Position numbers and translations under genes: made by a program. DNA of 64,000 nucleotides from Cafeteria roenbergensis (lineage: Eukaryota > Sar > Bigyra > Bicosoecida > Cafeteriaceae). Below, one piece after another: positions 8,032 to 47,000 of the stretch (position 1 is the first letter of the stretch; the number at the start of each line of letters is the position of its first letter). The stretch covers positions 124,001-188,000 of the forward strand of contig VLTN01000047.1 in assembly GCA_008330645.1 (NCBI GenBank). Reading direction: 5' to 3'. The notes below the pieces were generated by a model. That model was given only the letters and a program-made list of their open reading frames with translations. It was not told where the DNA came from and ran no database searches.

Positions 8032-8119
<88 letters not shown>

Positions 8120-8185: not shown

Positions 8186-9391
8186 CTACGGCTCTGCCGA
8201 GGCCGCCACGTCGGCGACCAACGGGACGTGGTCGGACGGCATTGAGGCGCAGGGCAGCCCCTCCTCCCCAATTGCCTCGCGCTCGGGCAGCTCAAGCACC
8301 GAGTGGGCACTTGCCCCCGCCCCCAGCCAGATGTAGTCAATGATGCGCGCGACAGACTTGGGCTTGCGCGCGCTGGCTTCATCCGCCTCCCCCGGAGCAA
8401 CCGCTGCCTGCGCTGCGGCGGCTGCGGCAGCTGCGGCGCGCGCCGCCGATCCCACCTCGGCCGAGCGCACCTTGAAGGTCGAGAGTCCCTCCTCAACAGC
8501 CAGCGTGGCGCCGTCCCCGCCCCCCACACGCGCGTACGCGGACCGCAGCCGCAGCCCCGGCCAGGCATGCAGCGTCGCGTACACGCCCTCCGCGCCGGCT
8601 GGCCCCGGCGTGGCCTGCGCTGCGGCGCTCAAGGCCCGCTTGGCCGCCGAGGCCGCGTCCTCCCCCTCCTCCCCCTTCGCCTCCACGGCCTCGTGAAGAC
8701 TGGCGCGGACAGGCTCCCCGGGCTGCACGCCAACGGATTCGATTGGCGGCTCGTTCAGGTCGCCTGCCATGACGACGCCGCACACAGCTGACCCCGAGGC
8801 CCGGAGCGATGACACCGCGGCCCCGACGTAGCTCGCCCACGCTCGGGCCTGCACCAGCCGTGTGGCGGCCGGACCCGGCCCCGTCTTGGCCTTGAAATGG
8901 GCAGTGGCAATCACCCACACGGCCGGTCTGCCGCTCGCGCCCAGCGGCGCGGCCAAGTCTCTGGCCAGCACGATGATTCCGCGCTGCGTGGTGTCAGGCT
9001 GGAAGCGGACCACTCGGCTGCTCAGCAGCTCCAGGCGCGACCGGCGCAGCAGCACAGCCTCCCCGTCGGCGTCCCCACCCAGCCGCTCGGCCGCCGTCCC
9101 GGCGCACGTGTGGACGCCCGTCCAGGGCCCCGCGATGCACAGATGGGGCTCGAAGGTATCGTGCCAGTGGTTGCACTCCTGCAGGCACACCACGTCTGCG
9201 CCCGCCGACTCAATGGTGGCCAGGATGCCGGGCGCGCGCGCCTCCCAGGACAGCTCGCGGGCGGGCTCCTTGATGTGCGCGAAGTTCCCGTGCTGGGCAA
9301 GGCCGTCCGCGAGCACGTTCCAAGTCATCACGCGGAGCAGTCCACGGTCGCTGGCCGCAGCCCGGGCTCCCTCCCACCGGGACCGCCGCAT
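8186..9391 (-). CDS. Endonuclease/exonuclease/phosphatase (EEP) family protein, nocturnin/CCR4-like
   Basis: Mg-dependent phosphodiesterase fold; relatives include mRNA deadenylases (CCR4, nocturnin, ANGEL) and nucleotide or inositol phosphatases. The substrate cannot be read from the sequence. From the ATG at 9391 it is 401 aa. Motifs in order: VMTWNVLADGLAQ (Asn of the active site), ADVVCLQECNHW (metal-binding Glu), VWVIATAHFKA, GVVMAGDLNEPP (Asp/Asn pair), RIIDYIWLG and the final catalytic SDHVPLVADV. The opening TWNVLADGLAQ and the LSWEARAPGILATI segment favour the CCR4/nocturnin branch. An alanine-rich insertion precedes the RIIDYIW strand. The gene has no intron and is followed 67 nt after its stop by an A83 tract. 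A Met at 9330 is an alternative start. Confidence 0.85.
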   Translation of the reverse strand: MRRSRWEGARAAASDRGLLRVMTWNVLADGLAQHGNFAHIKEPARELSWEARAPGILATIESAGADVVCLQECNHWHDTFEPHLCIAGPWTGVHTCAGTAAERLGGDADGEAVLLRRSRLELLSSRVVRFQPDTTQRGIIVLARDLAAPLGASGRPAVWVIATAHFKAKTGPGPAATRLVQARAWASYVGAAVSSLRASGSAVCGVVMAGDLNEPPIESVGVQPGEPVRASLHEAVEAKGEEGEDAASAAKRALSAAAQATPGPAGAEGVYATLHAWPGLRLRSAYARVGGGDGATLAVEEGLSTFKVRSAEVGSAARAAAAAAAAAQAAVAPGEADEASARKPKSVARIIDYIWLGAGASAHSVLELPEREAIGEEGLPCASMPSDHVPLVADVAASAEP

Positions 9392-9674
9392 AGTGCGGCC
9401 CAGCTGCGGGGAGTGAGGCGAGCAAGCAAGAAAACAAGCGGAAAAGGGCAATTGCAACCCGAGCCCGCGGCAGCAGAGGCCCGGCACGCGCGCAGTCCCC
9501 GCCAAGCGCCTCACAGACATCACTCCGTGCCCACTGCCTGACATCTCAAATGTGTGAGAGCCGGCCTGGCGCACAGTCGGGAGCCTCGGCAGGCTCTACC
9601 CAGCCACGCGAGTGGCTCGGTGCGCCGCCCGCTGCGCCCCCGCGGGCAGCACAACCGGGCCCGCCTGCCCCGCA

Positions 9675-10255
9675 ATGGACAACTCCGCGTTCAAGTCCAT
9701 TCTGGCGGCGGCCGAGCACACGTATGTCAAGCAAGCTGCTGCACAGTCTCAAGGGGGGGGGGACGCCGAGGCCAAGAAGGAAAAGCGGCGCAAGAAGCGG
9801 CCCCGCGACGACGCTGGCGACAGGAGCCGCAAGAGCCACGGCAATAAGCACGAGTGAGGATGCCACAAGCGCGCGCCCGCCAGGCCCCAGCGGGGCCGGG
9901 GGAGACGCCTGGGCATCGGCAGTCTTGGCAACGACTGCTTCCGCTGGCCCATCGATGCCCCTGGTTTCCCCCGCCTTTCCTCGGCCCGCGCGCGCGCTCC
10001 TTGCTTCCACGCAGGTATCGCGACTTGGCCGCCCAGAGGCGGGCACGAGAGGCCAGCGAAAAAAAGGACGGCGATGGCGAGGCTGCCGCGACCGCCGCTG
10101 CCTCCGCCGACTTTGAGCAGAGCAAGCACTTGGGCGGTGACGTCGAGCACACCCACTTGGTCAAGGGTCTCGATTTCGCGCTGCTCTACAAGATCAGGCG
10201 CGAGGCGGAGGCAGAGCGCCTGGCAGCGGAGGCGGCAGCCAAGTCGCGGAGGGGA

Positions 10256-10288
<33 letters not shown>

Positions 10289-11518
10289 GCCAAGGGCGCA
10301 GTCCAGCCGGAGGGGTCGGCCTTTGCGAGGCGCATCTTGGCCCGCGCCATGGACACTCACGAGGCGGCGCTGAAGCAGCAGGCTGCCTCGGGGAGCGGCG
10401 CCTCGTCCGCTGCTGCAGCCGACCAGGCCTCGCTCCGGGAGCAGCTTCGTAGGGCGCTCCTGCGGGACGGGGGCGGCTCGCGCTTCGCCCCTGGCCGCCT
10501 AACCTTTCGCCTCAACATTGAGACCGACCCCGACGCGGCTGGGTACGGAGAGGAGCCGGCCGCGGTGCTGCGGTCGGGCGCGGACTGCTCGGAGACAGAC
10601 GCGGGGGTGCTGGACCGGCTTCCGCACGAGCTCCGCACGGCGCTCTGCGAGGTGGCCAAGGCGGCTTCGGAAGGGGACGACGCTCTGAGGAAGCTGCGGC
10701 GGCGACGGCGCAGGGCGGAGCGGGAGGCGGCCGAGCGTGCAGCTGACCAAGGCCCGGCCCTCCTACCCGGAGCGGCGGCTGCCGCAGATGCAGGGGATGC
10801 CGCAGATGCAGGGGATGCCGGCGGCGATGGGGACGAAGACGACATTTTTGGCGATGTCACGGACGACTACGCATTTGGCGCGCCGGCCTTCGCCGCCGCA
10901 GCCGCGGGGCCTCATGGGTCAGAGCCCGCTGCAGATGAGGCGGACTCCATCACCTCTCCGGGAGGGCTGGGTGCGGGACCGCGCTCCAGCCTGGGCGAGC
11001 TCATCAAGCAAGGCAAGCTGCGAGTGCACTCCGACGCCTCGGGGGGTGACGAGGAGGACGACGACATCATTGCGGGCTACGTGGAGGAGCAGCCCGGCGC
11101 CGACGACGGGTACGGCGACATGGGGCTGGAAGGGCTGGGGGGCGCGCTGGCGGCTGATGCCCTCGCGGACACGACGGACGACGGGCCTGCCGGAGCCAGC
11201 TCTGCAGCCCGAGGGCCGCTCAAGCACAGGCACGATTTCGACACGGAAGAGGAGTACAACAAATACAAGCTCGCGCAGGGGGGCGCGCCGTCATTCGGCG
11301 CTCAGTTTGGCACCAAAAAGGGTTCCGGCCGGATGAGCGATAAGGAGCTTGCGCGCCGCAAGGCCGCTGCCCAGAAGCGCCGCTTCGAGCAGGACCTCAA
11401 GGACATCAACTCCAGGCTGGAGCAGCGCAGGACTGGGTCCAAGCCCGGCGAACTCCCAGAGGACCCTTCGGCGAAACGTCCCAAGCTGGCGGGCTCGTCC
11501 TCGTCATTTGTCCGCTAG
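9675..11518 (+). CDS. IK: Spliceosomal protein RED (IK)
   Basis: Component of the activated spliceosome's B complex, working with SMU1 in pre-mRNA splicing in the nucleus. Exons are 9675-9853 and 10015-11518, with a 161-nt intron GTGAGG...CACGCAG and matching phase 2. The product is 560 aa, essentially the human length (557). Diagnostic segments are RYRDLAAQRR-like YRDLAAQRRARE, KHLGGDVEHTHLVKGLDFAL, ILARAMD, FRLNIETDPDA, DDIFGDVTDDYAFG and the C-terminal RHDFDTEEEYNKYKLA with a final KRPKL nuclear-localisation-like stretch. A run of about nine serines lies at 10257-10288. The Arg/Glu/Asp repeats that name the animal protein are reduced to an Arg-rich RRRRRAEREAAERA segment. The first exon (MDNSAFKSILAAAEHTY) is basic and less conserved. 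Confidence 0.92.
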
Positions 11519-11615
11519 TGTTTGCCGACCTCTCTGCGCGGCCAAATATTGTACTGCGAAGCGAAATATTGCCATTTTCGGCAGCGCCCGAACCGGCCAC
11601 TCGCGAAAGCGAACC

Positions 11616-12317
11616 ATGATTGGGTCCACACGAGCTAGCCGGCTATACCGGCAGATGCTGGTCATGGCCAGGGCACTGCCAGAAGCGAGGCGCGCCAAAG
11701 CGACGAAGCAAATCATGGACGGGTTCCACGCTGGCCGAGACGAGGATGCCGCCGAACGGTGAGCTCGCCGGCTATCGCCGCTGCTCGGCGGGCCAGTCAG
11801 AGCCAGGGTCGGGTTGCAGCGACGGCAGCCGGGCTGGCTGCAGCCGAGGCCATGCGGTCCGGGGAACAGGGCTCGAAGCTTGTGCGCTGCCGCCGCCACC
11901 CGCGCCTAGCTCCGCTGCTCCGCAAGCGCATGCGAACGGGTCGGCGCGAGTCGCCCCTGTGACATGCTCACACGCCCTGCCTCTTTTTCTCGTCGCCCCG
12001 CGGCGTGCGGTCGGCCCCGCAGCGTGACCGAGCTGCTCCATGACGCAACGAAGCGCCTCAGCTTCATGCGCACGCTCGTTCCACCCCACCTGCGGCCCGA
12101 CTTTGCCGACGGGACCCAGCAGGGCTTCCAGCAGTACGTTGTGCGCGACGGGCGGGTCGAGGACGGCGCGGCTCGCCGCAAGGAGAAGGCCAAGTACAGT
12201 AACTGGCGGCAAGGGAACTTGGACCCGGATGACGTGGCGAAGCATCATGACCAAATGAGGCGCTTCCAATTTATGGACCGCCCCGGCGGCCCCCCGACTG
12301 GCCCGGTGTGGGGCTGA
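11616..12317 (+). CDS. LYR-motif (Complex1_LYR) family protein
   Basis: LYR proteins are small helical mitochondrial adaptors that act with acyl carrier protein in Fe-S cluster delivery and respiratory-complex assembly. Exons are 11616-11758 and 12023-12317, joined by a 264-nt intron GTGAGC...CCCGCAG with phase 2 on both sides. The product is 145 aa. The N-terminus ASRLYRQMLVMARALP holds the LYR tripeptide at residues 10-12, followed by the usual basic helix and a GFHAGRDE segment. Exon 2 gives VTELLHDATKRLSFMRTLVP and a charged C-terminal tail ending GPPTGPVWG, which is longer than in typical LYRM proteins. Which LYRM subfamily it belongs to (for example a Complex I or III factor) is not evident. 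The intron lies where a conserved Arg-Glu turn usually is. The gene starts 97 bp after the RED stop on the same strand. Confidence 0.75.
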
Positions 12318-12651
12318 GGGCAAGGTCTTCTGTCCCTTGACAAGGAGCCTTCGAGTGATAACCGACATTGAGTGCTTACGAGTGGTGCAAAGTTTCCCCG
12401 CCCAATCTGGCAGGGTGCCGTCACGGCGTGCGATCGAGGAAATGCATTCCGAAGTGGAAGGAGGCGCCCGCACACGGATGCACACACAGACACACACACA
12501 CACACACTGACAGCTGCGAGGGCTCGCGCTGCCAGGCGCCAGACGCCCAGGCGCTGCAGCCAGCAGCCTGGCTGCTCCCGCCCGCGTGGGCGAGGGGTGC
12601 GGTGGTGGAGGGCTGGGAGGGATAGGGAGAGAGGAACCAGGATCAGGGCGC
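12318..12651. other. Convergent intergenic region with a short (CA)n microsatellite
   Basis: 334 bp between the convergent LYR and POLR1B stop codons. It holds a CA-rich microsatellite at about 12480-12508, broken once by a G. Nothing else recognisable; it carries the two 3' UTRs. Confidence 0.6.
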
Positions 12652-18410: not shown

Positions 18411-21400
18411 TCAGGCCTCCTCCTCCTCCTCCTCCTCCTCATCGTCACTTTCCGCCATCTCCTTCTCAAGCCAGACGAAGAAGTCGGCGAGCTGCTTCAG
18501 TGCCTTGTTCTTTGCCTTGCCGGAGAGAGGACCGCGCGGGCCAGACTTCCACGCCGCAAAGGCGGAGTCATCGATGCAGTCCTCGTCAAACAGACCCTTG
18601 AACGCCCCGACGAGCATGCCGTTGGGGTAGCTCAGATCAATGGCGACAGACACCACGGCATCCAAGGCAGCAACGCTCTCAGCCAGCTTCTCGTCGCAAA
18701 CAGCGCTGATCACCGGCCCGAGCGCCTCGTCTGCGGCCCAGGGCGCGGCCAGGGTCAGCTGCTCACGGACGATGGCAGTCTGCGGACACGGACGGAAAGA
18801 ACAACAGACATAGAGCCTTGTTGGAATGCGGCAACGGGACGGCGCAACGGGCAGGCAGGGCAACCACGTCGACCTTTCCGTCAGACCCTTAGGAGAATAT
18901 AGCTCTCATCACTTGTGTTAGTATTTCAGCTATCAGGTAAAAAAACATTCGTCATTCGGTGAGGCGACGCTTCCTGTCAGAGGCATAGCAGCAGTGCAGA
19001 TGTGGCTCACCTTCAGCACGGCCCTGGTGACGCCCCAGGCAATGTCAGTCGACTCCGCTCCCGCGACGGCCTCGAAAGCAGCGGTGGCAGCCTCCACAGC
19101 TTCGTCGCCGGTAAGACCACTCGCAAGTGCTGCCTCCACTGCAGCTGCGACGCGCACGTTGGCAGGCTCCGCGGAGGCCGCCGCAGCAGCCGCAGCCGCC
19201 GCCGATGGCGCTTCGACAACTGCGTCGGGCTCTGGAACGCCCTCCATGCCTTCCTGGGCGCAGAGCCTGCGCAGCTCGCGGCCAGGCATGGCAGCCTTCT
19301 CGAAGAGGCCAGCCTCGATTGCCTCGGCCACGCCTTCTTTGAGGCTGCGCGGGAAGCTCTGGGCCCTGGAGAGGACAGAGTCCTTTGCCCGCCGGGCAAC
19401 GACCTCCAGATCCTCCTCGGCGAGCTCCTCACCGGCCTTCGAGGCTGCTTCCACCGCGCGATCCACAGCCGCCTGGGCTTCGTCGGCCGCAGTCTCCGGC
19501 GCGAGAGCTCGCGGAGTGTCACGAAGGACGCTGTCGTTGGCGGGCTCACCCCCCAGCAAGAAAGCAGCGGCCGCCTCCAAAGTGGCGACAACCTGGTCAA
19601 CCGAGACAAGCCCAGGTGCTGCGGCGTCGCCAGCAGAGGCCCCAGCCGCGCGACGGCCCTTGCCCCGACGGCCCTTGCCCGCCTTCTTGCTCTGCACGCC
19701 GGCCAGAGACGCCAGCAGAGCTCCGAAAACCTTGGCGTCGCCGCCACGCTGGCACAGAATCATGCGGCGCACGATCAGGTCGAGGCACAGAAGTGCGAAA
19801 GGCTCCGACGCCCCAGCAGCGCCGCGAATTGCCTCGGTTGCCTTGGCCACGTCGCCCTCTCCAGCCATAGACTGCTGCAAGGTGTCGAGGTGCTTCTCCA
19901 CGCTCAGCCGGACCGTCGCCTGCAAAAGAAATCGCAAAAGGCACAACGGGAACAAGACAAGATCGCGCGCCAACGAGGCCGCAAGGCGACGATGCAAGGA
20001 AGGAGGAATAAAATGTCAAACCCCTGATTCAGTATTGCCGTCAGAAGCAAAGCAGAACGCCGCCTCGGGTACTGTGCCCAGGTGAGAGGAGCTGCCAAGC
20101 CCTCAGATGTTGCCCCACGAACGCTAAACAAAGCCTAGGTGCGAACAGGGGTGAGAGACCCCCTGCAAGCACCGAGCGGCAATGGTCGTGGGGCGAAAGG
20201 CAGCGCATTGCGAAGCAATCTCGTGGTCTCACCATTGCCTCGCTCTCGCTCATCTGGCTCGCCAGGGTTCCGGTAACATCGCCGGCAGCGCCCTTGACGC
20301 GCTCCGTCTCCTCAGCAGACGCCTTGGCTGCCGCTGCGATTGCCTCGACTGCCTTGGACGACTTGGCAGGCGACGGCCGTGCGCCTGCAGCAGCAGGTCC
20401 CCCACGCAGTCCAGAAATACCGGGGTATTCCTGGCGGCTGCCCGATGAAGCGAACGCCTCGCCCATGCGGCCGCCGGGCCGGGAGCCCATCATGCCGGCC
20501 ATCGGTGGCCTGCCTCCCATCATGCGGCCTCCCATCATGCCAGCCATGGGGGGGCCACCCACCACGCGGTCCCCTGCCAACGCTTGGAACCGGTCAGTTG
20601 GGATCTTCTCGTCGTCTGCCAGCTTGCGGGCAGGGGCCACGCGAGGAGCTGCGCCGAGGCCGCCGGCAACCCGCTCCGACATGAAGGTGGGGCCGCCTTC
20701 GCTCTGAGGTCCTCCCGGCCGCGGGAACGACTGTGGCCTCGGAACCGGGTCGTCGCTCTTAAGTGCCGCAAACCTAGAGTCAGGAATCCTGTTCTCAGCT
20801 GCAAGCGGGCGCCGCTGCGGGGGAGAGCTCGCGAGGGGCCGCCCAGCCAGACCAGGACCGCCCAGGCCTGCAAGTCGGTCATCCGCGGTCTCTCTGGGCT
20901 TTGAGACCTCAGCCGGAGAGCCTCGGCCCGGGAGACGAGACTCCCCGAATCGGCCACCGGGGCCGGTGCGCGGGCCCGAAGGACGCGCGTCGCGCAGGGC
21001 GCTGAAGCGGTCCGGAGCGCTGCTGTCTGCAGAGGCGGTCGTCCCGGTTGGTGCCGGACGCGCATCTTCGGGTGCAGGCGGGAGAGCCGGCGCGACGCCC
21101 TGCAGCAAGGAGAAAGACAACCGAGGGGACATCAGAGGGCGAGATTGGCCAGGATCACGGGCAGTTCAAACATGCTCGAGCTCGGCTCCGACCGAGAGAG
21201 CGATCTTCGCCGCCAGCACTCTGCCGAGACGCGAGACTCACAGCTTGGGGCCGTTGTTGACGAGAGCGCCAGCTGCTTCCGACCTGGGGCCGTGCGTCAC
21301 GCGCCGGGGCGTTGCGGCTCGGTCCGCCGACCATCGGGCGCCTGATGCCGCCGACGGGAGGGCGCGCGCCGCCGGAGCGCCAACTGCCTCCGTCCGACCT

Positions 21401-22075: not shown

Positions 22076-25000
22076 ATGCTGCGCTCCATCAGTGAATTCT
22101 TCAGCCCGACGCATGCTGCGCCTTCGTCGTCGCCGCTGGACATCAGCAAGGTCACTGACAGGTTGTATGGTGAGCGAAGGCCTTGCGGTGGGCACTGGTG
22201 ACGGGAGTCTGCTGCACCCTCGCGCCGCCACCTTCTGCACTGGGGAATGCTGGTGCAAGCCGCGCTCTCCTCAGCGCTTCCTCACCAGCCCCCCCCCCCT
22301 CGCTGCTTCCGCGCCCGCGCACTGCAGTCATGGGCCTGCCGTGGAGGCGAATGACAGAGGCGACCGCGCAGCGGAACAACATCGACGAGATCGCGGCGCA
22401 CCTCCGAGCCCAGTTCGGCAACCATGCGCTCCTGTTCGACCTGACTTCCCGCGGCCCGCACGGCGTGGACTACAGCAAGTTCAACCACCAAGTCTTGCAT
22501 TTCGAGCCTGATTTTAGCGACCGCGGCCATGAGGACGTGCCGGCCATCCGCCAAGCGTTCTCCTTTTGCTACGCGGCGAAGTTCTGGACTGAGCTGCACC
22601 CACGGAATGTCGTGGTGTTGTTTTGCAAAGACGGAAGGAGGCGCTCTGGCTTTTTCGCCGCGTGCTGGCTAGCCTACTCCGGAGTGGCTGCGGACACCAT
22701 GGAGGGATACCAGATCTTCACGGCTGCCCGCCTGCGAGGGAACATCCAGGGAACCGATGCCAGAAGCGCAGCAGCGCGGGCAATGCGAATGCGGGCTCTT
22801 CCCGACGAGCGACGAAAGCTGCGCTTGCTTCGCTCGTGGGCCTACTTGCTTGTCAGCACGAACACGCTGCTCAACCAGATTGCGGCCAGGCCCGTGACCC
22901 ACGAGCTGGTCAAAATCATCGCGCGCTTCTCGGGGGCGATGGAACAGCCCGGTGCGCCGCCCCCGGTCGTTGAGGTCCTGGTGGACGGCAACCCGGTATT
23001 CTACTCGGACGAGGTGTGCGCGTCGCATAGCCTTGACCGCGCGTACGAAGGGGATCCCGGCGAAGACGATGGCGCGCTTGACGAGGCTTGGAAGCCGCAG
23101 CTCCACTGGGTTGACGGCTCTCTGATTGTGGATGTGCGCAGATATGTCAGGGGCGATGTGTGCATCCGAATCCTGACTGAGCAGAGGACCCCAGCCGAGG
23201 AGGAGCGCGAGGCCAGGGCGCTGGAGGCACCGTCGGGGCTTTCTCCCGTCACGCCCAGCCTGAGCCGGCCCCGGATTGCCGCCCGCTTCGCCTTTCATTC
23301 CAGTATGCTGCCAGCGTTGCCCGACGTAGTGACTCACCCGTTCACCGCGGACAGGGTCGACCTCCATCACGTCGAGCTGTCGGGGCACCCCGACAAATTT
23401 TCTCTGCACCTCATCTTGGGACCTGCACCGCTGGAATATAACGGAGCGGGGCTTCCGGAAGAGTTGGGCACGGCTGGGCCGAAGGCGGATGCTGCCCGGC
23501 GGCTGGCAGCTTCGGAGGCAGCTGGTGGGTCAGGCAGGACACCCACCCCAGCGGCCTCGAGCGCAGATGCATCCGGCTCCGCCCCCTTGGTTCGCCCCCC
23601 GGCGCCTGTGGAGTCTTCTTCTCCCACTCTTGCCTCGTTGGTGAACGTGCGGGACTTCCAGGCGACGCGGCTGGGCATGATGGTCGTCTGCTTCTCCCAC
23701 GCGGTCGTCCCTCAAGAGTCCCTTATGGCTGCGATTGTGAACCGGCATCGATTTGATGGCGACACAGTCGCAGCAGCGCTTCAGCTCACGAATAACTCGG
23801 AAGAGGCCGCCCTGGGGCTGCTCAAGGACGGGCTGCTGGCCTCCCTCGCACGGGCACCCCAGTTCACCGAGGAGGAATGCTTGGGCACGGCGTACGGCGC
23901 AGCGGCCTCGATGTCGTCGCGTGGTGCGAGTCCGCCAAGAAGCGCTGCGCTGCGGCGTGAGGACCGAGAGTCACTGCCGGCAGCAGATGCAGCGTCGCAG
24001 AGCGCGGCCGCGCCGGCAGCCACGCGTGCAGCTGCAGCCAGCACGGGCATCGGGGCGCCTGGCTCGCCCGCTGGCCAGGGGCTGACGCCCGACGCCCTTG
24101 GCCTGAGCCAGGACGACGTCCAGGCGCTTGTGGGTTTCCTCCGAGGACAGAAGTCGATTCGAGAAGCGATCGGCAGCCCCTCGACCCTGCTCTCGCCAGG
24201 CTTGCCCACGGGTGCTCAGGACATGGATGACAGGCAAGCCTCGGAGCGCTCGGCAGCGTTGCGATGGATTCACCTTTTGGTTGACCACGCAGTTCGGGAC
24301 CCTGTGGAGGAGTCGTCGCCGTCGCCGACCAGCAGCTTTCCTGTTTCCCCAGCTGCTTCTGCTGCTAGCCTCGAAGCAGCCGGGCTGCTGCCAAGTCCAG
24401 AAGCGCCTTCAACGCCGCTTGCTGCCAGCCAGCTCCACATTGAGACGCCACATCGGCGCGGCGAGGCTCAAGTGCCCGCGACTCCAGCCTCGCTGCGCAA
24501 GCCCTCACAAAGGCTTGCCAGCGTGCTGGGTGACCTTGGCCAGACGTCAGACCCGTCAGCTTGGCGGGCGATTCGTGACCTACTCCACGACCCATCAGTC
24601 GCTGTTTCGCCTCCTCTTCGACGCGTGGCGCATGCTAGGGCTCACACCATTCAGGCCGGCTTTGGTGCGGCCATGCTCGGCTCGACCTCACCCGCAATGA
24701 CGAATGCTGGGGGAAAGTCCGTCCCAAGTCGCCGGGACCAAGCGCCAGCCGCCCCCCTGCCCCAGCTGGGTAAGACTGCGGAGCACCCAGGTGTTGCGAC
24801 GTCCGAACGAGCTGGCGACCCTTCTGCGCTCGGTGATGGGCTCTCCGACGACATGATCGCAGTGATCCAGCGACTTGTCGTTCGGGGCGTCTCAGCCAGC
24901 GAACTCGAGAGCATTTTGACGGACGCAGGCATGCATGCTGGTCAGGCTAGGATAGCTGCTCGGGCAGCCGCCGCAGCCGCAGGCACGTCAGAGCCGCACA

Positions 25001-28000
25001 CTGGCACCTCCCAGGCTTCGCACGTCGATGGCAAGTTCCCTGTTGGCCCTGCACAAGCCAGCGCAGCGACGTCAGATCCAGACCTCCACCGACACCCCGC
25101 CGAGTCTGCAACTGGCCCAGTTGAGCCATCGCCTGACTTGAGCCACCTTGCAGATCGTCCCAAGGCAGGCGCTGAACCGTCGTTGTCGGGATCCCAACCA
25201 GGTGCGGATGCCGCCACTCCTGGCGGTGCGGGCGCGCCTGCGGCTGGGCCCGACGCTGCGGGCGGTGTGCCGCTCGGCCAGGACCCGGCGTATGCCCCCT
25301 TCTTCAAGATGCTCAAGGTGGGCGTTCCGCGGCCGGCCGTGGAGATCAAGGTGCGCGAGGCGGGGCTGGACCCGGCGGCGCTGGACGCGGACCAGAGCAA
25401 GCCGTTCGGGAAGCCGACAGCAGCGGGCGCCGGCGGTGCGGGCGCGCCTGCGGCTGGGCCCGACGCTGCGGGCGGTGTGCCGCTCGGCCAGGACCCGGCG
25501 TATGCCCCCTTCTTCAAGATGCTCAAGGTGGGCGTTCCGCGGCCGGCCGTGGAGATCAAGGTGCGCGAGGCGGGGCTGGACCCGGCGGCGCTGGACGCGG
25601 ACCAGAGCAAGCCGTTCGGGAAGCCGACAGCAGCGGGCGCCGGCGGTGCGGGCGCGCCTGCGGCTGGGCCCGACGCTGCGGGCGGTGTGCCGCTCGGCCA
25701 GGACCCGGCGTATGCCCCCTTCTTCAAGATGCTCAAGGTGGGCGTTCCGCGGCCGGCCGTGGAGATCAAGGTGCGCGAGGCGGGGCTGGACCCGGCGGCG
25801 CTGGACGCGGACCAGAGCAAGCCGTTCGGGAAGCCGACAGCAGCGGGCGCCGGCGGTGCGGGCGCGCCTGCGGCTGGGCCCGACGCTGCGGGCGGTGTGC
25901 CGCTCGGCCAGGACCCGGCGTATGCCCCCTTCTTCAAGATGCTCAAGGTGGGCGTTCCGCGGCCGGCCGTGGAGATCAAGGTGCGCGAGGCGGGGCTGGA
26001 CCCGGCGGCGCTGGACGCGGACCAGAGCAAGCCGTTCGGGAAGCCGACAGCAGCGGGCGCCGGCGGTGCGGGCGCGCCTGCGGCTGGGCCCGACGCTGCG
26101 GGCGGTGTGCCGCTCGGCCAGGACCCGGCGTATGCCCCCTTCTTCAAGATGCTCAAGGTGGGCGTTCCGCGGCCGGCCGTGGAGATCAAGGTGCGCGAGG
26201 CGGGGCTGGACCCGGCGGCGCTGGACGCGGACCAGAGCAAGCCGTTCGGGAAGCCGACAGCAGCGGGCGCCGGCGGTGCGGGCGCGCCTGCGGCTGGGCC
26301 CGACGCTGCGGGCGGTGTGCCGCTCGGCCAGGACCCGGCGTATGCCCCCTTCTTCAAGATGCTCAAGGTGGGCGTTCCGCGGCCGGCCGTGGAGATCAAG
26401 GTGCGCGAGGCGGGGCTGGACCCGGCGGCGCTGGACGCGGACCAGAGCAAGCCGTTCGGGAAGCCGACAGCAGCGGGCGCCGGCGGTGCGGGCGCGCCTG
26501 CGGCTGGGCCCGACGCTGCGGGCGGTGTGCCGCTCGGCCAGGACCCGGCGTATGCCCCCTTCTTCAAGATGCTCAAGGTGGGCGTTCCGCGGCCGGCCGT
26601 GGAGATCAAGGTGCGCGAGGCGGGGCTGGACCCGGCGGCGCTGGACGCGGACCAGAGCAAGCCGTTCGGGAAGCCGACAGCAGCGGGCGCCGGCGGTGCG
26701 GGCGCGCCTGCGGCTGGGCCCGACGCTGCGGGCGGTGTGCCGCTCGGCCAGGACCCGGCGTATGCCCCCTTCTTCAAGATGCTCAAGGTGGGCGTTCCGC
26801 GGCCGGCCGTGGAGATCAAGGTGCGCGAGGCGGGGCTGGACCCGGCGGCGCTGGACGCGGACCAGAGCAAGCCGTTCGGGAAGCCGACAGCAGCGGGCGC
26901 CGGCGGTGCGGGCGCGCCTGCGGCTGGGCCCGACGCTGCGGGCGGTGTGCCGCTCGGCCAGGACCCGGCGTATGCCCCCTTCTTCAAGATGCTCAAGGTG
27001 GGCGTTCCGCGGCCGGCCGTGGAGATCAAGGTGCGCGAGGCGGGGCTGGACCCGGCGGCGCTGGACGCGGACCAGAGCAAGCCGTTCGGGAAGCCGACAG
27101 CAGCGGGCGCCGGCGGTGCGGGCGCGCCTGCGGCTGGGCCCGACGCTGCGGGCGGTGTGCCGCTCGGCCAGGACCCGGCGTATGCCCCCTTCTTCAAGAT
27201 GCTCAAGGTGGGCGTTCCGCGGCCGGCCGTGGAGATCAAGGTGCGCGAGGCGGGGCTGGACCCGGCGGCGCTGGACGCGGACCAGAGCAAGCCGTTCGGC
27301 AAGCCGACAGCAGCGGACGCTGAACCCGCCGACCCGGAGGCTGTTCCAATCAAGGAGCATCCAGAATATGGGCCTTTCGTCAAGATGCTTCGGCTGCGAG
27401 TTCCCCGCCCGGCCATTGAGAACAAGATGCGAGTGCAAGGCCTTGACTCGGCTGTTTTGGACCTCGATCCTGAGGAGATTCTCCCAAAGCGCTTCCGCAA
27501 GAGCTCCAAGCCAGCAGCGGCAGCCGCCAGCAGCCATGCGAAGGCCAAGTCAAGCGTGATCCGGAAGCGGCTGCATTGGGATGAGCTGCCCGAGGACAGG
27601 CTCGCCAAGACTTCTTTTTGGGACCAGGTGGCAAGCGAGGCTCGTGAGGCTGGACAGTCCGGAGTGGACATCGACTCGAGCGACTACGAAGCCTTGTTCA
27701 CCAAAAAGAAGGGCGCCCCTTCGAAGCCAAAACCTGCAGCTGGCGCTGCAGCAGCGGGTGCAACCAAAGTCCGACTGGTGGAGTTCAAGAGGGCCACAAA
27801 CGTCGGGATCGGACTCGCCCGGATCTCAATGGGCACTGCATCGGTCAGGGCCTGCCTGAGGGACCTGACCTGCTATGCGCCCGACGGCAAGTCCCAGCTG
27901 TCAACGGCAGACCTCCATTCCCTTGTGGATCTTGTCCCTACCAACGAGGAAGTTCGCACAGTCATGGCATTCAAGGGGCCGCGCAGTCAGCTGGGAGAGG

Positions 28001-30404
28001 CTGAGGCGTTCTTCGCAGCGATGGCAGATGTCAAGAAGCCCAAGGCAAGGGCGATGGCGCTTCACTACCAGCGGCAGTTTCGAGAACGCGTTTCGGAGCT
28101 ACTTGAGCGATACAAGCTTCTGCATCAAGCGTGCTCGCAGGTGTCGGAGTCTCAATCCCTGAAGCGTGCTCTTGGCTGGGTATTGCGGGTTGGCCACCAA
28201 CTCAATACAGCCGGCAAGGGCAGTTCGGCCGACCTCGGAACAAGGGGGCTGGCCGTGACTTCTCTGGCCAAGCTGTCTTCCACCAAGGCCTTTGACGGGA
28301 AAACCACGGTTTTGCTCTATACCGTTGGTCAAGCCCGAAAGGCAGGCGACACTGAAGCTTTGATGGTGTCAAAGTCATTGCCTTTGGCCTCTGACGCGAG
28401 TCGCATCCAGCTTGCAAACCTTTTCAGTGAGCTGGCCGAGTTTACCACGGGCCTGGAGCACGTGTCGAGGCTTGTTGACGAGCAAAGGCGAGCCGAGGGC
28501 GGGTGGCTGGGCAGGGCAAGAGGCAGCTCCGCAGCAGCAGCGCTCGCGTGTGACCTGGACAGCAGTGGTGCGGCGACTCCAACCAGCCTGGGCAGCCCAA
28601 AACCGGCCCAAGCACTGACCTCCGGAGTGGACGCCGGCGGAGATGAGGAGCCGCTATCCCCTTCGCCACTTGCACTCAGGGCTGAGCAGTCCTTCGAGCG
28701 CGAGGCTCTGAGCGAAGCTGCCTTGGAGGATCGCATCGAGACTCTTGCTGAGTTCCGAACACGGGCCAAGCGCGCTGTGGCGGCGCTGCAGTCATGCCAC
28801 GAAGCCTGCACAGCAGAGTTTCGGGGGCTGCTGAATTTTCTGGGGCAGGATCCATCCATGGATGCCTCAGTCCTTTTCCGCGAGCTCCATCGCTTCTGCA
28901 TTGCTGTCGAAAAGGCCAGGTTCGACTTGGATGAGAAAGACAGGAGGGACGAACTCCTGCGGCGGCGCACCGCGCCGCGCGGCCCGGTGGGGAGCTCGAA
29001 GCAGTCCAGCCAGACACCGCTGCAGCGAAGGCGATCGATGATGCCTGCCCGCACTGCAGCGAACTCAGCCTCAGCTCGAACCTTGACCGCGCGCGCGCCG
29101 GGCGTTCTGACTGCCGCTGAGATGGCTGCCAGCTCCAGTCAGGATGACGATGCGCTGCATCCCATCAGGCACATGCAGCGTTCAAGTCAGCCCCGGACGC
29201 AGGTGCCTGAGATGCACTTCAAGCCGCGCCCGCCGCCTCCTCTGATGGACAAGTTGCCTGCCAAGCCAGCACCGCCCCCGCCAGCTGCTAGTGGGGCGCC
29301 AAACGGTGCGGACTCAGCACACTCAACGGCCACCAGCAGGGCAGGCAACAGCATGGCGGGTGTGCTGGCCGGGATCCGCGCCCGCCCGCAGGCCGCGCCG
29401 GTGGCGTCGTCGGGTGACGACGACGACGAGGCTGCTGGCAGGGGCGGCGGCATGGCGGGTGTGCTGGCCGGGATCCGCGCCCGCCCGCAGGCCGCGCCGG
29501 TGGCGTCGTCGGGTGACGACGACGACGAGGCTGCCGGCAGGGGCGGCGGCATGGCGGGTGTGCTGGCCGGGATCCGCGCCCGCCCGCAGGCCGCGCCGGT
29601 GGCGTCGTCGGGTGACGACGACGACGAGGCTGCTGGCAGGGCGGCGGCATGGCGGGTGTGCTGGCCGGGATCCGCGCCCGCCCGCAGGCCGCGCCGGTGG
29701 CGTCGTCGGGTGACGACGACGACGAGGCTGCCGGCAGGGGCGGCGGCATGGCGGGTGTGCTGGCCGGGATCCGCGCCCGCCCGCAGGCCGCGCCGGTGGC
29801 GTCGTCGGGTGACGACGACGACGAGGCTGCCGGCAGGGGCGGCGGCATGGCGGGTGTGCTGGCCGGGATCCGCGCCCGCCCGCAGGCCGCGCCGGTGGCG
29901 TCGTCGGGTGACGACGACGACGAGGCTGCTGGCAGGGGCGGCGGCATGGCGGGTGTGCTGGCCGGGATCCGCGCCCGCCCGCAGGCCGCGCCGGTGGCGT
30001 CGTCGGGTGACGACGACGACGAGGCTGCCGGCAGGGGCGGCGGCATGGCGGGTGTGCTGGCCGGGATCCGCGCCCGCCCGCAGGCCGCGCCGGTGGCGTC
30101 GTCGGGTGACGACGACGACGAGGCTGCCGGCAGGGGCGGCGGCATGGCGGGTGTGCTGGCCGGGATCCGCGCCCGCCCGCAGGCCGCGCCGGTGGCGTCG
30201 TCGGGTGACGACGACGACGAGGCTGCCGGCAGGGGCGGCGGCATGGCGGGTGTGCTGGCCGGGATCCGCGCCCGCCCGCAGGCCGCGCCGGTGGCGTCGT
30301 CGGGTGACGACGACGACGAGGCTGCCGGCAGGGGCGGCGGCATGGCGGGTGTGCTGGCTGGGATCCGCGCCCGGGGAGCACTTTCAAGTCACGGAGACTC
30401 GTGA
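22076..30404 (+). CDS. PTEN-type formin with WASHC3-like repeats and WH2/DAD-like tail
   Basis: Predicted actin nucleator/elongator. Exons are 22076-22169 and 22328 onward, with a 158-nt intron in phase 1; about 2,720 aa if the tail is read through. N-terminal PTEN-like phosphatase (residues about 22-205) starts LDISKVTDRLYVMGLPWRR and has CKDGRRRSG near residue 131, so the C-x5-R loop is intact though the preceding His is Phe. A C2-like domain follows (to about 405), then UBA-like helices (FDGDTVAAALQLTNNSEEAA). Residues about 997-1696 are ten 70-aa repeats of PAYAPFFKMLKVGVPRPAVE type, plus one diverged copy (EYGPFVKMLRLRVPRPAIE). FH2 spans about 1775-2240 (KRLHWDELP, NVGIGLARISM, LGWVLRVGHQLNTAG). 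No proline-rich FH1 precedes FH2; PPPPLM and PAPPPP lie after it. The tail has 33-aa WH2/DAD-like units. One unit is 98 rather than 99 nt, so a frame change at about 29640 splits the tail (see the repeat entry). Confidence 0.88.
25222..27321 (+). repeat. Ten-copy 210-bp tandem repeat inside the formin gene
   Basis: Ten head-to-tail units of exactly 210 bp start at 25222, 25432, 25642, 25852, 26062, 26272, 26482, 26692, 26902 and 27112. Copies look identical by eye, apart from a G-to-C change near 27300 and changed final codons in the last copy. Each encodes 70 aa: a Gly/Ala/Pro linker, then QDPAYAPFFKMLKVGVPRPA and EIKVREAGLDPAALD. The helical part closely resembles the C-terminal motif of WASHC3/CCDC53 (DPRYARYLKMVQVGVPVMAI). 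An eleventh, diverged copy at about 27331-27490 shows the ancestral unit. Because 210 is a multiple of three, long frames also stay open on the other five readings; these are shadows. Confidence 0.97.
29353..30401 (+). repeat. 99-bp tandem repeat encoding WH2/DAD-like units in the formin tail
   Basis: Units start at 29353, 29452, 29551, 29649, 29748, 29847, 29946, 30045, 30144 and 30243, with a partial eleventh from 30342. Each encodes MAGVLAGIRARPQ, then an APVASSG linker, DDDDE and a Gly-rich end. The core resembles WH2/DAD actin-binding or autoinhibitory segments of formins such as INF2. The unit starting 29551 is 98 bp: a run of four G is three G near 29640. In the frame of the FH2 domain, translation after this point becomes Arg/Trp-rich and ends at 30447. 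In the shifted frame the repeats continue cleanly to a stop at 30404. A homopolymer sequencing error or a true mutation are both possible. Confidence 0.95.
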
Positions 30405-30563
30405 AGTGTTCAGCGGAGAGTGGCTTTGCCGCAACCTGCATTGCTGAGAAACAAGCTACGTTGTCCCGCATTCGCATGCGTGTTGTGGCTGTCTGCGAGG
30501 TGGCATTCGACACTAAACAAGCCGCCGTGCAGCCACCCACTTCCTTGCGTTGTCAGAAAATCA

Positions 30564-33187
30564 TCACCCAATCTGCTTGTCGGACAGGTCACGCATCGCC
30601 TTGGCGTGCGCGCGCCGCTCCGCTGGGCTTGCATCAGGTGGCGCCGTGTCTGCCCAGACAGCCTCTTCGTCGGATTGCCCATGCTGATTCTGGATCTCCG
30701 CACCCGCAGGCTCCTCTGACGCGGGAGGCTTCCCGCTGCGGGTCCAGCTGTGACGCCGACGCCCGCTGGAGCCGGGGCCTCCAAATTCACCCCAGTTGTC
30801 TTCGACAGTGAGCCCGCCTCCGGAGATGAGGCTTCCCCAAGCCAGCCAAAGCCACATCCCGGCGTCCAGGGCGCGCACCGTCAGCCTGGCACGCGTGACT
30901 GCCCACCAGACGCGCACTGAGCGCATGATCTCGGACAGCGTGCCGGCGGATGCAGCCCGGTCCTTGGCTTCCGCCGCCGCAGCGGTGGCGAGAGCTACAA
31001 GCGACGCTGATGGGACCACTGCCGCGCGTTTGCTTGACTTGCCTCCGTTGCATGCGTATCCTGCGGCACTGGCCGCAGAAGTTCCGAAGAACCGCCCCCC
31101 CGCGCCCTTGAGCGACTGCATGTTGCTCTCCGGCGTGTTTTGGCGAGTCACATCTGCTGCCAGGGCCTTCTCGGCCAGCTCTGGGGTCGCAAGCTCGGCT
31201 TCCAGGATCGCCGCTTCAAGCCGGGCGCGGCCCTCTGCAGTCCGCAGCCACACAAGAAGCTCCGAGTCAGTCGGCTCGTTCAGCCGGCAGAACGGGTTTG
31301 CCGGGTCGGTTGAGCGCCCAGCCGCGAACGAGGATCCGCTCGCCACGCCAAGCCTGTGATGGAGGTCCCACCACCAGGACGGCAACTGCACGTCGCGCCC
31401 CGCTCCCGCGTCCGCTACGGCAAACAGCTCTCGAATTCCCCACACGTTCTCGTTGAGGGCCATACCGCGCACCGCCGCGTCGCCGCTGATGCTGATGCGA
31501 GATGCTGTGGTGCCGCCAAGTGACAGGTTCAGGCCTCGCACAAGACTAAGGTTGCGGCTGACGAAGAAGAAGTCGCGGGGCATCTCCCGGATCATCTCTT
31601 GCTGCTTCTCCTTAGGCGAGTTGGCGAGATTCTTCATCGTCTGCTGCAGCTTCTCTTTGGAGCCGCGCGTGCCCGTGCGGTAGGTGAGCATGAGCGAGAG
31701 TGCGTCGTACGCCTGGCCTTCGAGCCCCATCTGGATGGCGGCCCGACGGCCGAGCTCCTCGTCTCGAAGCATCAGGGCCTCCCAGAGGGCGCAGTACGCC
31801 TGCCGAAAGCTTGGCGAGAGGCGCCGATACATGCCGTGGTCCAGCACAACCAGCTGCCACGCCTGGCTGGGCCGCTGCCCAACAAGTGCAGGGTCTGCAG
31901 CCGGACGGGGCTTGTCAGCGTCTCGGCCAACGCCCGGTCCGCTATCTGGCCAAAGTCCATGGGAGAGGCTTCGCGTGCGGGCGCCGTCGGCAGGCGCAGC
32001 CCGCACGAGCAAGTTTCCCGGGTGGGGATCCGTGTGCACCATTCCATGCAGAAAGATCATATCGGCGAACACTGTGCAGGCCGTTTCGGCCACCTCTTGG
32101 GGCCTGAGGCCCATTGCAGTCACCTTCTCGAGCGAGGTCGGCTTGACTCCGTCGATCCACTCCATGGCCATGACCCGCTCGGAAGTGAGGTCCCAGCGGA
32201 TGGCGGGGATGTGAACGCGGTTCCTCATGACGCTGTCGCTTGCGGTGAGCATGCGATGGGTGCGCTCAGATGTGATGGCCTCCTGGCGAAAGTCGAGTTC
32301 GCTAAGCAGCGACTCCTCGAACTCGGGCAGGAGCCACTGCATGTCGTAGTCGGGGTAGAAGATGCCCCACAGCCAAGTGATCACCTGAGATCATCAGCGG
32401 GGGGGAGGGGGGGGGCATGGGGCTTGCGTGATGGTTGCGGGCAGGCGAAGGAGGCGCGTGCGCGCGAGCGCCAGCGCAGTGGCGATGAGAGCGGGCTCAC
32501 CCTGAGGGCCGCGATGTCAGCGGCCATTTGTCGGGGGAGAGAAGGGTACTGCACCTTGATTGCCACGCGCTCGCCATCAAGAGTCACTGCGCGATGCACT
32601 TGCGCAATGGAGGCGGCTGCCACCGGTTTCTTCTCAAAGTACGCGAATAGCTCCTCCGGCCGCGCGCCCAGCTCCTGTTCGATGACTTGGGCAATCTCCT
32701 CGTAGTCCCTGCCTGTTGCGCTGTCCTGGGCAGCCGCGAGGGTGGACGTGAACTGCTCGGGGACCATTGGCTTGAGGGTGCTGACGTACTGCGCCAGCTT
32801 TACCCATAGGCCCCCCATGGACAACGACATGCTGAGAATGCGGTCTGCTGCGCGCTGGTGCACTCGCGCCTCGCGCTCAGAGTACTCCTCGGAATCCTCG
32901 TCCACGCCTTGCCAGTCTGCCACGCGGGGCAACAACTTGTAGTCGGCCGCAACCCTTCCCGCGTTGTAGACGGCGTAGTAAAACCGAGGCACGCCCACCA
33001 CGACACCGCGCATGCTCTCCAGGAATCCGTCCGACCTGCGGTTGCACGGGGCGGGGCGGGCCGCTGGGTGAGGCGCGTCATTGTGTCCCCGTGGCGGGAC
33101 GGTGGCGGCAAGCGGCAGCTGACCCGGCCGGCGCGGCACAGTGCTCACGCGCCGTGGGCGGATTCGGGCTTTGGGTCCGCCTCGCAT
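30564..33187 (-). CDS. ABC1/ADCK-family atypical kinase (ADCK1-like)
   Basis: Protein-kinase-like (UbiB/COQ8/ADCK) family; members act in mitochondria or plastids in ubiquinone and lipid homeostasis. Exons are 33187-32501 and 32384-30564, with a 116-nt intron GTGAGC...CTCAG in phase 0; about 835 aa. The Arg-rich N-terminus (MRGGPKARIRPRRVSTVPRR) reads as a mitochondrial presequence. Family motifs: KLAQYVSTLKPMVPEQF (the KxGQ motif, here KLAQ), the Ala-rich loop VAAASIAQVHRA, VAIKVQYP, LLSELDFRQEA, catalytic HTDPHPGNLLV and VVLDHGMYRRLSP. The DHG form of DFG favours the ADCK1/5 branch. A low-complexity insert of about 40 residues lies between PHPGNLLV and LVVLDHG. The C-terminal region includes a hydrophobic helix (MWLWLAWGSLISGG) and a charged tail. 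Its start is only 24 bp from a candidate plus-strand start. Confidence 0.88.
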
Positions 33188-33211
33188 GAGACCAGCGCCG
33201 CAGCAGCTGCA

Positions 33212-33484
33212 ATGGACGCGCCGGCGCCGCCCGCCATCGCGAAGCGCTTGCGCGCTGAGGAAGCTGCGCGAAGCATTCACGCCGTCAGTTCAGCAGCACA
33301 AAAGGCGCCCCTGCACAGGACACCGGATCACCAAACGACCCCGCTGCCACACGGGCAGTGCTGGGTCTGCCTGCGCAACAGGCCCGAGTGGATCTTGGCA
33401 CGCGGCCAGCTTGCTCATTGCGACGGGCTGCGGAATTCGGAAAAACAACCTGCAGAGCCAGGGCACGCGTCGCTCCAACACTGA
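33212..33484 (+). CDS. Candidate small protein, unrecognised
   Basis: A 90-codon frame from an ATG placed 24 bp from the divergent ADCK start. The first part (APPAIAKRLRAEEAARSIHA) looks like coding sequence of this genome, and a CWVCLRNRP dicysteine follows. The second half has no resemblance to anything I know and may be intronic or untranslated. It overlaps the minus-strand candidate at 33415-33576; at most one is likely real over the shared bases. Function unknown. Confidence 0.25.
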   Translation: MDAPAPPAIAKRLRAEEAARSIHAVSSAAQKAPLHRTPDHQTTPLPHGQCWVCLRNRPEWILARGQLAHCDGLRNSEKQPAEPGHASLQH

Positions 33485-44043: not shown

Positions 44044-47000
44044 ATGGCGTTCTGGTCGAGCGCTGCCGTCAAGGCCTACATTGACGAGAACAACAAGGGC
44101 ATCCAGGTGAGGCGCTGCCCATGTGGGCGGGCCCCACCCGCCTGGGCGAGCTGTGGCTGGCAGCAGCGCTTCCGTGTTCGCTGGCAGGCGTTGCCTTGTT
44201 GACCGCCGCCTCAACTGCTCCCTGGCCTGCCTCCCGCCTCTCCCCCTCGCCTCCGCGCGTCTCTACAGACATACTGCCTCGTGGTCCTTGCCACGTTTGC
44301 GATCGGCTCGCTTCTGCTGGTGCTGGCGAGCGTGCTTCTGCCGCTGCTGTTTGCGCTGTTCCTGGTGAGACGCCCGCCAGGCGCCATGGAGTTTCCCCGC
44401 TGGCCGAAAGCCGGACGCCGTGTCTGCGCTTGGCCCAAGGGGGCCAACGCCTTCGTCGGGCCACTGGTACGCCCTGCGCGGCCGCTGCGGCGAGGCCAGT
44501 CTCTCATGCGGCCCACGCTCCCCCACGCTTCACGCGAGCGCAGAGCCTGCATTTTTCGCCCCTCATCGAGCTGCTGGAATGCAAGCGAGGCCCTCGCTGC
44601 TTGCGGGAGTGCAACATGCCCTGCCGCCGCGCCACGAAGGACGCGGTGAAGCTATGCAAGGGCCCAGACAACGAGTTCAAAAACGTGAGACGCCCGCAGC
44701 ACGCGGAGTCGCTGAGTCAATCCCCCGAAGGGCTTGCACCGGCTCGCTGTGCCCCCAGCAGTCGCGCCCTGGCCATGCCGCCCCGCCGCCCCGCCTGGCT
44801 CTTGCCGCAGAACATTTACAATGGATTCGTAGAAGGCGTTGTTGACCTGTTCTGTGGGCTCAAGTTCCCGGCGTGGTTGGCCATTCTGACCACGTTCGGC
44901 GTGATCATCGGATTTTTCATCATCATTGGGGTCATCGTCAGCGACAGTATCAACGGTCTCCTGAACGACAGAGACAAGTGGGTCTCGCAGTGGGAAAAAC
45001 TCAACAACCAGGTGGCCGAGCTGGCCGCGCAGCAGGGCTTCACCGTCACGAGCGAGGACATCAACAAGGGAGCAACCGAATTCCTGCTGAACAACGTTGT
45101 CACGCCTCTCACGTCCCTGCTGCCGTCGATCATCACGTACACCTTCTTGACGCTTGCGTTCCTCGTCTTTGTGCTGGTCTCCCCGTCAACGTTCTTTGGT
45201 GATTCCGATGCTCTCACAACAACGGACCCTGACGAGCTTTCCTGCTCCGACGACGAGGTGCCCGATGACGAACTCGCTGCCGCGGTCGACAACGTCATCA
45301 CCGCCCAGGCGGCTGCGATCCTCGTAGAGGAGGAGGACGACGAAGACGACGGCATTCTGGGAGAGTCGCGCAAGTCCCGCAACTCGCATCGAGCCTCTCT
45401 CCGCCGGCCCGTGTCGGCCGCGCACTGGGGCAGATCTCATGCGATTGCTGGATCGGCACGGCAGCTCCTTGCCCATGACATGCAGCGGCGGCGCACCACG
45501 GCGCATTTCGGCACACCTCAAGGCGGCTCCGCCCGTGGCCAAGGCCGTCGCCATCATGGGCTGGCAGCAACGACACACTTTGCGGGTCGGCATGGCATCA
45601 TGCAGCCGCCGGTGTCGCCCGGAACCGTCGGACAGTGGAGGGTGGACGTGCAGACCGGGTGGAAGCCCCGTCCCCGCACGGCAGAGCCTTCGCCCGTCGC
45701 GGATGGCAAGCGCGCCCCAGGCCAGCGCATGCGTCGAGAGGAGCTTTCCCAGGAAGAGGGAGCCGGCGGCGCGGGGGAGGGTGCCAGCGAGCGAGAGCAC
45801 CGTCCCGCGGACCGCGAAGGGGGCCAGCACCGACCCTCGCGACCCCACTCCAGCCCCTCCGCCTCCACGAGCGGCCGCTTGGACCTGCCCAGGGGCAGGG
45901 CGCAAGGCCCCCGCCCGACCCTGGAGACAATCGGAAGCGGAAACGATGACAGCGAGGGCGAGCGACTGGCGCACCCCATGGCCGTGAGCCCGCACCGAAT
46001 GCGCGTGGCAGGACCCCGCACCGACGCCCGCGTGCCAGCCCAGCGCGCGTACCGCGGCGAATCTGCTCCCTCCGGTGACAGGGCTCGCGCTACCGAGGAC
46101 AGCGGCGAGGAGGCGGCGGAGGGCTGGGCTTCGCGGCGGCATGAAGCGGGCGAGCCGACTGCGGAAGCGGCCGCAGCGGCAGCCGGAGCAGCGGCCGCGG
46201 CCGCGGCAGCAGCTGCCAAGCGACGCGGAGCTGCTTGGGCCCCCCCCGGGGGGACTCTGCCGCCGCTCGCCGCCGGCGAGCTCGCCGCACTGTCAAGCGC
46301 CTCCGGCCGCGACGAGTCCTCCAAGCGCCCAGGGGGCCAGCGGCAGGAGCAGGAGCAGCGCATGCGCGCGTTGTCGGAGGGCGTAGCCACTGCCGGCCAG
46401 CGCCAGCAGGGCGGGCCTCCTGCCTCGGGCGGCCCTGGACATCGCGCCGACCCCGCGGTCGTGATTGACCCGATCGAGGAGCTTTCCGCGCCCGTTGGCC
46501 ACCACCCCTCGTCGAGGCGGAGCTCTGCCGAGCCGCGGCCATCCGGCCAGCACGACAGCGCCACCGCATCGCGCGAGTCGAGCCTGCCAGGGCGGCGCCT
46601 GGCCTCGCGAACGGACGCAGCGGCGCGCTCGCGCGCGGCCACGGAGGGCCAGGCAGTGAGCAGCGGGGGACGAAGCAGCACAGCAGCTGCGGGCGCAGAG
46701 CCCGACAGCAAGGCCCGGCCGCGCGCTGGGTCCAACCTGATGCACCGGGCCACCAAGGTCCTCGAAGTGGTTGGCCTCAACATCGCCGAGGGCTCCTCCA
46801 CGGAGAACGAAGAGGACACGGAGGACGAGATCCCGCTAGAGGCGGACCAAGAGAAGCACGGCGCCACGTTTGCAATGTCGCCCTACCCGGCGGCCCACGT
46901 CGGCAGCCCCGGCGGGCCGGAGATGGATGCCGACATGCTGGCCCTCGAGGAGAACAGGCGCAGGCTGCGAGCGTGGGCTCGCCGCCAGCGCCGGGCCGGT

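Follow-up and report, generated by a model that had tools for sequence, protein, structure and literature searches.

The 64,000-nucleotide stretch of Cafeteria roenbergensis DNA analysed here (the window) carries on its plus strand, at 22076-30404, a gene predicted to encode a formin that joins a PTEN-type phosphatase head, an array of motifs resembling the C-terminus of the WASH complex subunit CCDC53 (WASHC3, Pfam family PF10152), an FH2 domain and a second tandem array in its tail (Table 1). The gene contains one 158-bp intron, and its open frame has its first methionine codon at 22076 (ATG). A PTEN alignment obtained with phmmer starts at residue 20 and runs ungapped across the exon junction at residue 32; downstream of the intron follows a single long exon, whose frame meets no stop across FH2 and on into the tail array. 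The preliminary description of this locus had placed the phosphatase, the CCDC53-type motifs and FH2 in a single chain, and the one stop-free open frame connecting them bears this out: they are parts of one predicted reading chain.

The GC content of the window ranges from 63 to 76% (2-kb steps), a composition in which long open frames come cheaply on both strands, and profile matches rather than openness are therefore taken as evidence of coding. The GC content of the formin frame at the three codon positions is 0.717, 0.594 and 0.755. Since this frame was not among the 16 of 208 stop-to-stop frames (at least 150 aa) that passed a codon-composition filter, we relied on profile matches instead. 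In two of its segments taken alone, the linker that separates the PTEN part from the motifs (GC1 0.722, GC3 0.647) and the eleventh motif copy, GC3 is lower than GC1 and the codon composition is not clearly coding-like. The composition of the linker could be taken to mean that PTEN and FH2 belong to separate genes, and the one-base difference in a G run of the tail, together with the difficulty of assembling long identical repeats, that the repeats were misassembled in number. We nevertheless hold such an artefact to be very improbable, because the stop-free frame joins PTEN to FH2 and several lineages are known to have PTEN-FH2 fusions.

Table 1. Position of the formin gene features within the window
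Feature	Position	Strand	Remarks
Exon 1	22076..22169	+	31 codons and 1 nt; PTEN-type domain starts here
PTEN-type PTP (phosphatase) domain, residues 20-169, split by the intron	22133..22740	+	phmmer, PDB
Intron, 158 bp, GT..AG	22170..22327	+	removal yields the PTEN-like continuation MGLPWRRM
Region where C2 would lie	22924..23541	+	no sequence match; low-confidence beta-rich model
Low-complexity linker, two stretches UBA-like by eye	23590..25221	+	no Pfam UBA match
Array of ten units of 70 aa (210 bp), each composed of a single CCDC53 C-terminal motif plus a G/A/P-rich linker	25222..27321	+	
Eleventh, diverged CCDC53-motif copy adjoining FH2	27322..27549	+	Pfam E 3.1e-11
FH2 domain, low-complexity insert before its last part	27550..28941	+	Pfam E 3.6e-48
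Basic and proline-rich segment after FH2, two PPPP runs	28942..29349	+	
Tail array, ten units plus part of an eleventh, MAGVLAGIRARPQ...DDDDEA	29350..30404	+	

A tRNA scan and an Rfam scan of the window at the gathering threshold were both empty. Pfam scans of 14 of the 16 composition-passing frames and of two others gave matches to RNA polymerase Rpb2, RED, a proteasomal-type AAA ATPase and an M14 carboxypeptidase, among others, and the frames so matched are, to judge from their profiles, ordinary eukaryotic genes. Convergent with the formin gene, an ABC1 atypical kinase is encoded on the minus strand (30567-33289) and falls into two frames (32384-33289 and 30567-32390), owing to an intron or to a length change. 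Also on the minus strand, a W2 domain of the eIF4G/eIF5 type (18414-18905) lies next to a 360-aa frame devoid of any Pfam match (18936-20015), and the two perhaps form one gene via an intron. On the plus strand, an AI-2E-type transporter frame is followed by the M14 carboxypeptidase frame, which is cytosolic carboxypeptidase-like (44085-49985), and one frame at 59717-62266 combines leucine-rich repeats with an EF-hand pair. An 87-bp T-rich tract (8036-8122) with 83 consecutive T is found in a stretch of 68% GC, just past the point where a minus-strand frame for an exo/endonuclease-phosphatase (8192-9595) ends, and resembles the poly-A tail of a retrocopy; the search for a retrocopy target-site repeat detected no 8- to 20-mer common to the 30 bases left of the tract and to positions 9300-12600.

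The phosphatase-type head and the FH2 domain

Of the PTEN-like phosphatase and C2 module described previously at the N-terminus, the phosphatase part was recovered. In a phmmer search of PDB sequences, residues 20-169 match PTEN and voltage-sensor phosphatases over their PTP domain (E 7.2e-9), and an unfiltered comparison with human PTEN matched the same region. Pfam alone gave a sub-threshold match to a related phosphatase family on the spliced head (E 0.066) and no phosphatase match on the unspliced chain. The active site, FCKDGRRRSG at 22621-22650, retains Cys131 and Arg137 and has Phe in place of the preceding His, a sequence from which the head is probably catalytically dead. No C2 module could be detected by sequence after the PTP domain: Pfam and a direct phmmer comparison with PTEN were both without a match, the region scored -5.1 bits against PTEN, lower than many shuffles, and a phmmer search of PDB sequences returned one match, to an unrelated protein (E 1.4). 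A single-sequence model of the region is beta-rich at the very low confidence of a mean pLDDT of 38.9. A C2 domain is possible at this position; phosphoinositide binding through it, as proposed earlier, is not supported, the domain being undetectable by sequence.

PTEN-FH2 fusions are known from plants, prasinophytes, stramenopiles, some fungi and choanoflagellates, as stated in two papers (PMC2386819, PMC5628938); the earlier remark that PTEN-C2 fusions define plant class II formins is thus correct in that the fusion occurs in plants and incorrect in that it is not restricted to them. Grunt et al. 2008 (PMC2386819) describe two types of active site, both judged probably inactive: in PTEN-formins of stramenopiles the Arg is retained and the His missing, and in those of plant class II and of prasinophytes it is the Arg that is absent. 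The corresponding part of Pruyne 2017 (PMC5628938) groups the heterokont, fungal and choanoflagellate PTEN-formins together, with the layout PTP-C2-FH1-FH2. Judged by its residues, the active site of the C. roenbergensis protein fits the stramenopile PTEN-formin pattern and not the plant one. Like the PTEN-formins of stramenopiles (diatoms, Phytophthora) and of some fungi and choanoflagellates, the protein has an N-terminal PTEN-type domain together with FH2, and it shares with those of stramenopiles the retained Cys and Arg and the lost His. Plant class II formins possess the same two domains but not the catalytic Arg, according to the passage cited (PMC2386819), whereas Arg137 is present here. 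In contrast to known PTEN-formins, the protein has no FH1 before FH2 and an eleven-copy CCDC53-type array in its place, it carries an extra tail array, and its C2 is undetected by sequence.

The FH2 domain of the preliminary description passed the Pfam search in two stretches, the better of which covers profile positions 12-304 of 372, and among PDB chains it matches INF2, DAAM1 and DIAPH1 (E 2e-14 to 7e-14 for the best chains of these). Two tryptophans near its start (RLHW and SFW) are presumably placed as in the FH2 dimerising lasso. The count of prolines agrees with the previous statement that a proline-rich FH1 is absent before FH2: from residue 1 to FH2 there are at most 5 Pro per 20 residues and no FH1, one PPP occurs at residue 242, and the two PPPP runs of the chain are found only after FH2. 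Apicomplexan formins likewise have FH2 without a canonical FH1; the passages on them in PMC2951370 and PMC3302767 describe a proline-rich segment upstream in Toxoplasma FRM1/FRM2, a rudimentary FH1 in Plasmodium formins and none in a nuclear formin-like protein, and mention neither a CCDC53-type motif nor PTEN. The lack of FH1 is therefore unusual, albeit not unheard of.

The UBA-like helices previously pointed out in the linker were not matched by the UBA profile, Pfam giving no UBA in 23551-25221 at E 10 (HMMER filters may lose weak matches). Another possibility considered for the linker, that its second helix-rich stretch is a decayed twelfth CCDC53 copy, was rejected after a profile search run without filters over residues 401-996 gave no hit.

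Two tandem arrays flanking FH2

Eleven stretches of the chain pass the PF10152 profile individually in Pfam, ten in the array plus the copy adjoining FH2, in agreement with the ten-plus-one copies of the CCDC53 C-terminal motif described at the outset; the E-value of a single array unit is 2.2e-11, close to which stands that of copy 11 (Table 1). The whole-chain E-value of 4.2e-130 is a sum over the repeats, and single-unit values are preferred to it because an antisense frame across the array reaches E 2.6e-6 by summing alone. This antisense frame, of 825 aa, has three whole-sequence Pfam matches, of which the value just given is the best, without any individually passing stretch, and we attribute them to weak matches summed over the repeats; a second antisense frame across the repeats, of 913 aa, has no Pfam match. 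No twelfth copy was found with a two-sequence profile among the six-frame pieces of the window of at least 30 aa, the next match having an E-value of 0.47.

The best PF10152 stretches listed cover profile positions 94-147, 105-147 and 106-147 of 147, positions 1-93, N-terminal to the motif, being unmatched in them. With the match confined to the final third of the profile, what the protein has in common with CCDC53/WASHC3 is a C-terminal motif of about 43 residues, present eleven times here, and not a WASH subunit. CCDC53 is integrated in the WASH complex through its N-terminal part, in the way that HSPC300 is incorporated into WAVE. A WASH-like interaction or assembly surface, which had been suggested for the repeats, is consequently not supported. 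To our knowledge no function has been assigned to the C-terminal motif, which belongs to the family formerly named DUF2360.

The first nine 210-bp units have identical DNA, and the 3 bases by which the tenth departs from them all lie downstream of the motif; all ten units are in frame with the full motif. Such identity indicates that the array expanded recently, and its copy number is for this reason no evidence for a long-conserved function or for selection. GC3 amounts to 0.87 in the 210-bp array and 0.88-0.89 in the tail array, compared to 0.65-0.76 in the PTEN, linker, copy-11, FH2 and post-FH2 segments. When the array motif was compared with copy 11 over 40 codons, 11 were identical, 11 synonymous and 18 non-synonymous, giving NG86 estimates of dN 0.31 and dS 1.63 which, albeit derived from one pair and with dS near saturation, argue that the motif is constrained at the protein level. 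Units 10 and 11 were modelled together with single-sequence AlphaFold2 (mean pLDDT 61.5, pTM 0.31). The motif of unit 10 was predicted as three short helices, the blocks that contain them having a pLDDT of 85-90 for the first two and of 67 for the third, and the model of copy 11 was poorer, with block pLDDT of 46-66. A fold search with the motif model gave no significant match (best E 1.2), and comparison of the motif with PDB sequences gave matches at chance level (best E 0.54).

The repeated unit of the tail array reads MAGVLAGIRARPQAAPVASSGDDDDEAAGRGG. Nine of the units are 99 bp long, and the third (29548-29645) measures 98 bp, one G being missing within a G run. As sequenced, the FH2 frame thus comprises three tail units and continues into an unrelated Arg/Trp-rich repeat up to a stop at 30445-30447, for a total of 2737 aa, the remaining tail units being read as repeats in the frame that ends at 30404; owing to the short third repeat, this end is reached only in a frame other than that of the rest of the chain. 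The one-base change may be either a genuine allele or a sequencing error.

This tail had been described as a multi-copy WH2/DAD-like segment, a reading that the comparisons did not sustain. At E 10, Pfam found no WH2 or DAD in the first three units (HMMER filters may lose weak matches), it found neither in the later units in either frame, and only unrelated proteins were matched among PDB sequences (E 0.55 and above). The best ungapped scores of the tail were reached by 1640 of 5000 composition shuffles for N-WASP V1, 1613 of 5000 for V2, 3222 of 5000 for WASP WH2 and 4246 of 5000 for the DAD of mDia1. WH2 has an LKKT/V-type part after a helix, and DAD a basic tail after a helix; the helix MAGVLAGIRARPQAAPV of the tail unit does have, by eye, the spacing of the N-WASP WH2, but the basic LKKV-type part is absent.

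These observations bear on the proposal of a feeding arm formed by the CCDC53-type repeats in place of FH1 and of a WH2 tail that delivers actin monomers, the whole being tied to WASH-type signalling. Before FH2, precisely where an FH1 would be expected, there is indeed the array instead, and CCDC53-type repeats acting as an FH1-replacing feeding arm are possible. The WH2 half is unsupported: as WH2 or DAD the tail is no better than shuffles, and as sequenced it is frame-disrupted, with only about three units in frame with FH2, which leaves multivalent monomer delivery without a basis. The link to WASH meets the further objection that CCDC53 is matched only in its C-terminal third. Taken as a whole, we consider this proposal quite unlikely.

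A closer rival to the interpretation that we favour below is a neutral one, in which copy 11 is functional and both the ten-unit array and the 99-bp tail array are minisatellites tolerated in disordered parts of the chain. The presence in one gene of two separate tandem arrays whose periods are divisible by 3, the near-perfect identity of the 210-bp units and the raised GC3 of both arrays are in keeping with it, and a frame-shifting length change in one tail unit is what would be expected if the units were dispensable. That all ten 210-bp units keep the frame and the full motif may be held against it, although recent copies would do so without selection too. If such neutral expansion of the extra beads had taken place, copy number would vary between individuals or assemblies. 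We regard it as plausible, albeit with a probability well short of even.

Possible roles of the motif array

A PTEN-type head joined to FH2 is of a known kind, and it is the motif array that looks new. The combination of CCDC53, formin and FH2 is undescribed in the literature searched, and sequence databases may well contain it. The sections of a WASP-family survey (PMC3298513) and of an actin-mimic review (PMC9569871) that were consulted hold nothing on this combination, a WASHC3 paper (PMC12936001) has none of the three terms sought, and an oomycete genome paper (PMC7217449) has, in its secretome table, the PF10152/IPR019309 family without architecture. Searches for relatives covered virus and prokaryote collections, where absence is uninformative on protists. 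In viral contigs, tblastn confirmed as a relative none of 91 pattern stretches obtained with a one-unit query and none of 12 obtained with a query spanning copy 11 and FH2, and the latter query had none of its 269 pattern stretches confirmed in genome contigs. A degenerate motif pattern found no viral stretch and four stretches in prokaryote records, taken for chance; CCDC53 was without a match in one prokaryote genome and 14 control genomes, a result likewise uninformative.

With modest confidence, we incline to the view that the gene encodes a membrane- or scaffold-targeted pseudophosphatase formin, in which multivalent CCDC53-motif beads serve as a docking arm. The FH2 dimer would nucleate, or cap and elongate, unbranched actin filaments, and the phosphatase head, performing no catalysis, would direct the protein to a membrane or a partner. 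Each CCDC53-type motif may fold as a small helical bead and, carried on flexible G/A/P linkers, the beads would together form a multivalent docking arm for one partner, which would be concentrated beside the growing filament end. Profilin-actin, if it is used, would be engaged only via the short polyproline runs after FH2. Unequal exchange could recently have built up the array, starting from one bead next to FH2; the diverged copy 11 is likely the older form of that bead.

A broader idea, which we put forward as rather unlikely, is that the CCDC53 motif is a portable docking bead of the actin machinery used by formins and by WASH, multiplied here in replacement of FH1, such that the partner of WASH (or profilin-actin) would be recruited multivalently without polyproline. 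If this were true, Arp2/3-type (WASH) and formin actin assembly would be linked via a shared docking part. Having the motif eleven times at the place of FH1, this natural protein would permit a direct test of motif binding and of actin feeding to FH2, and it addresses the question of how a formin may act without FH1.
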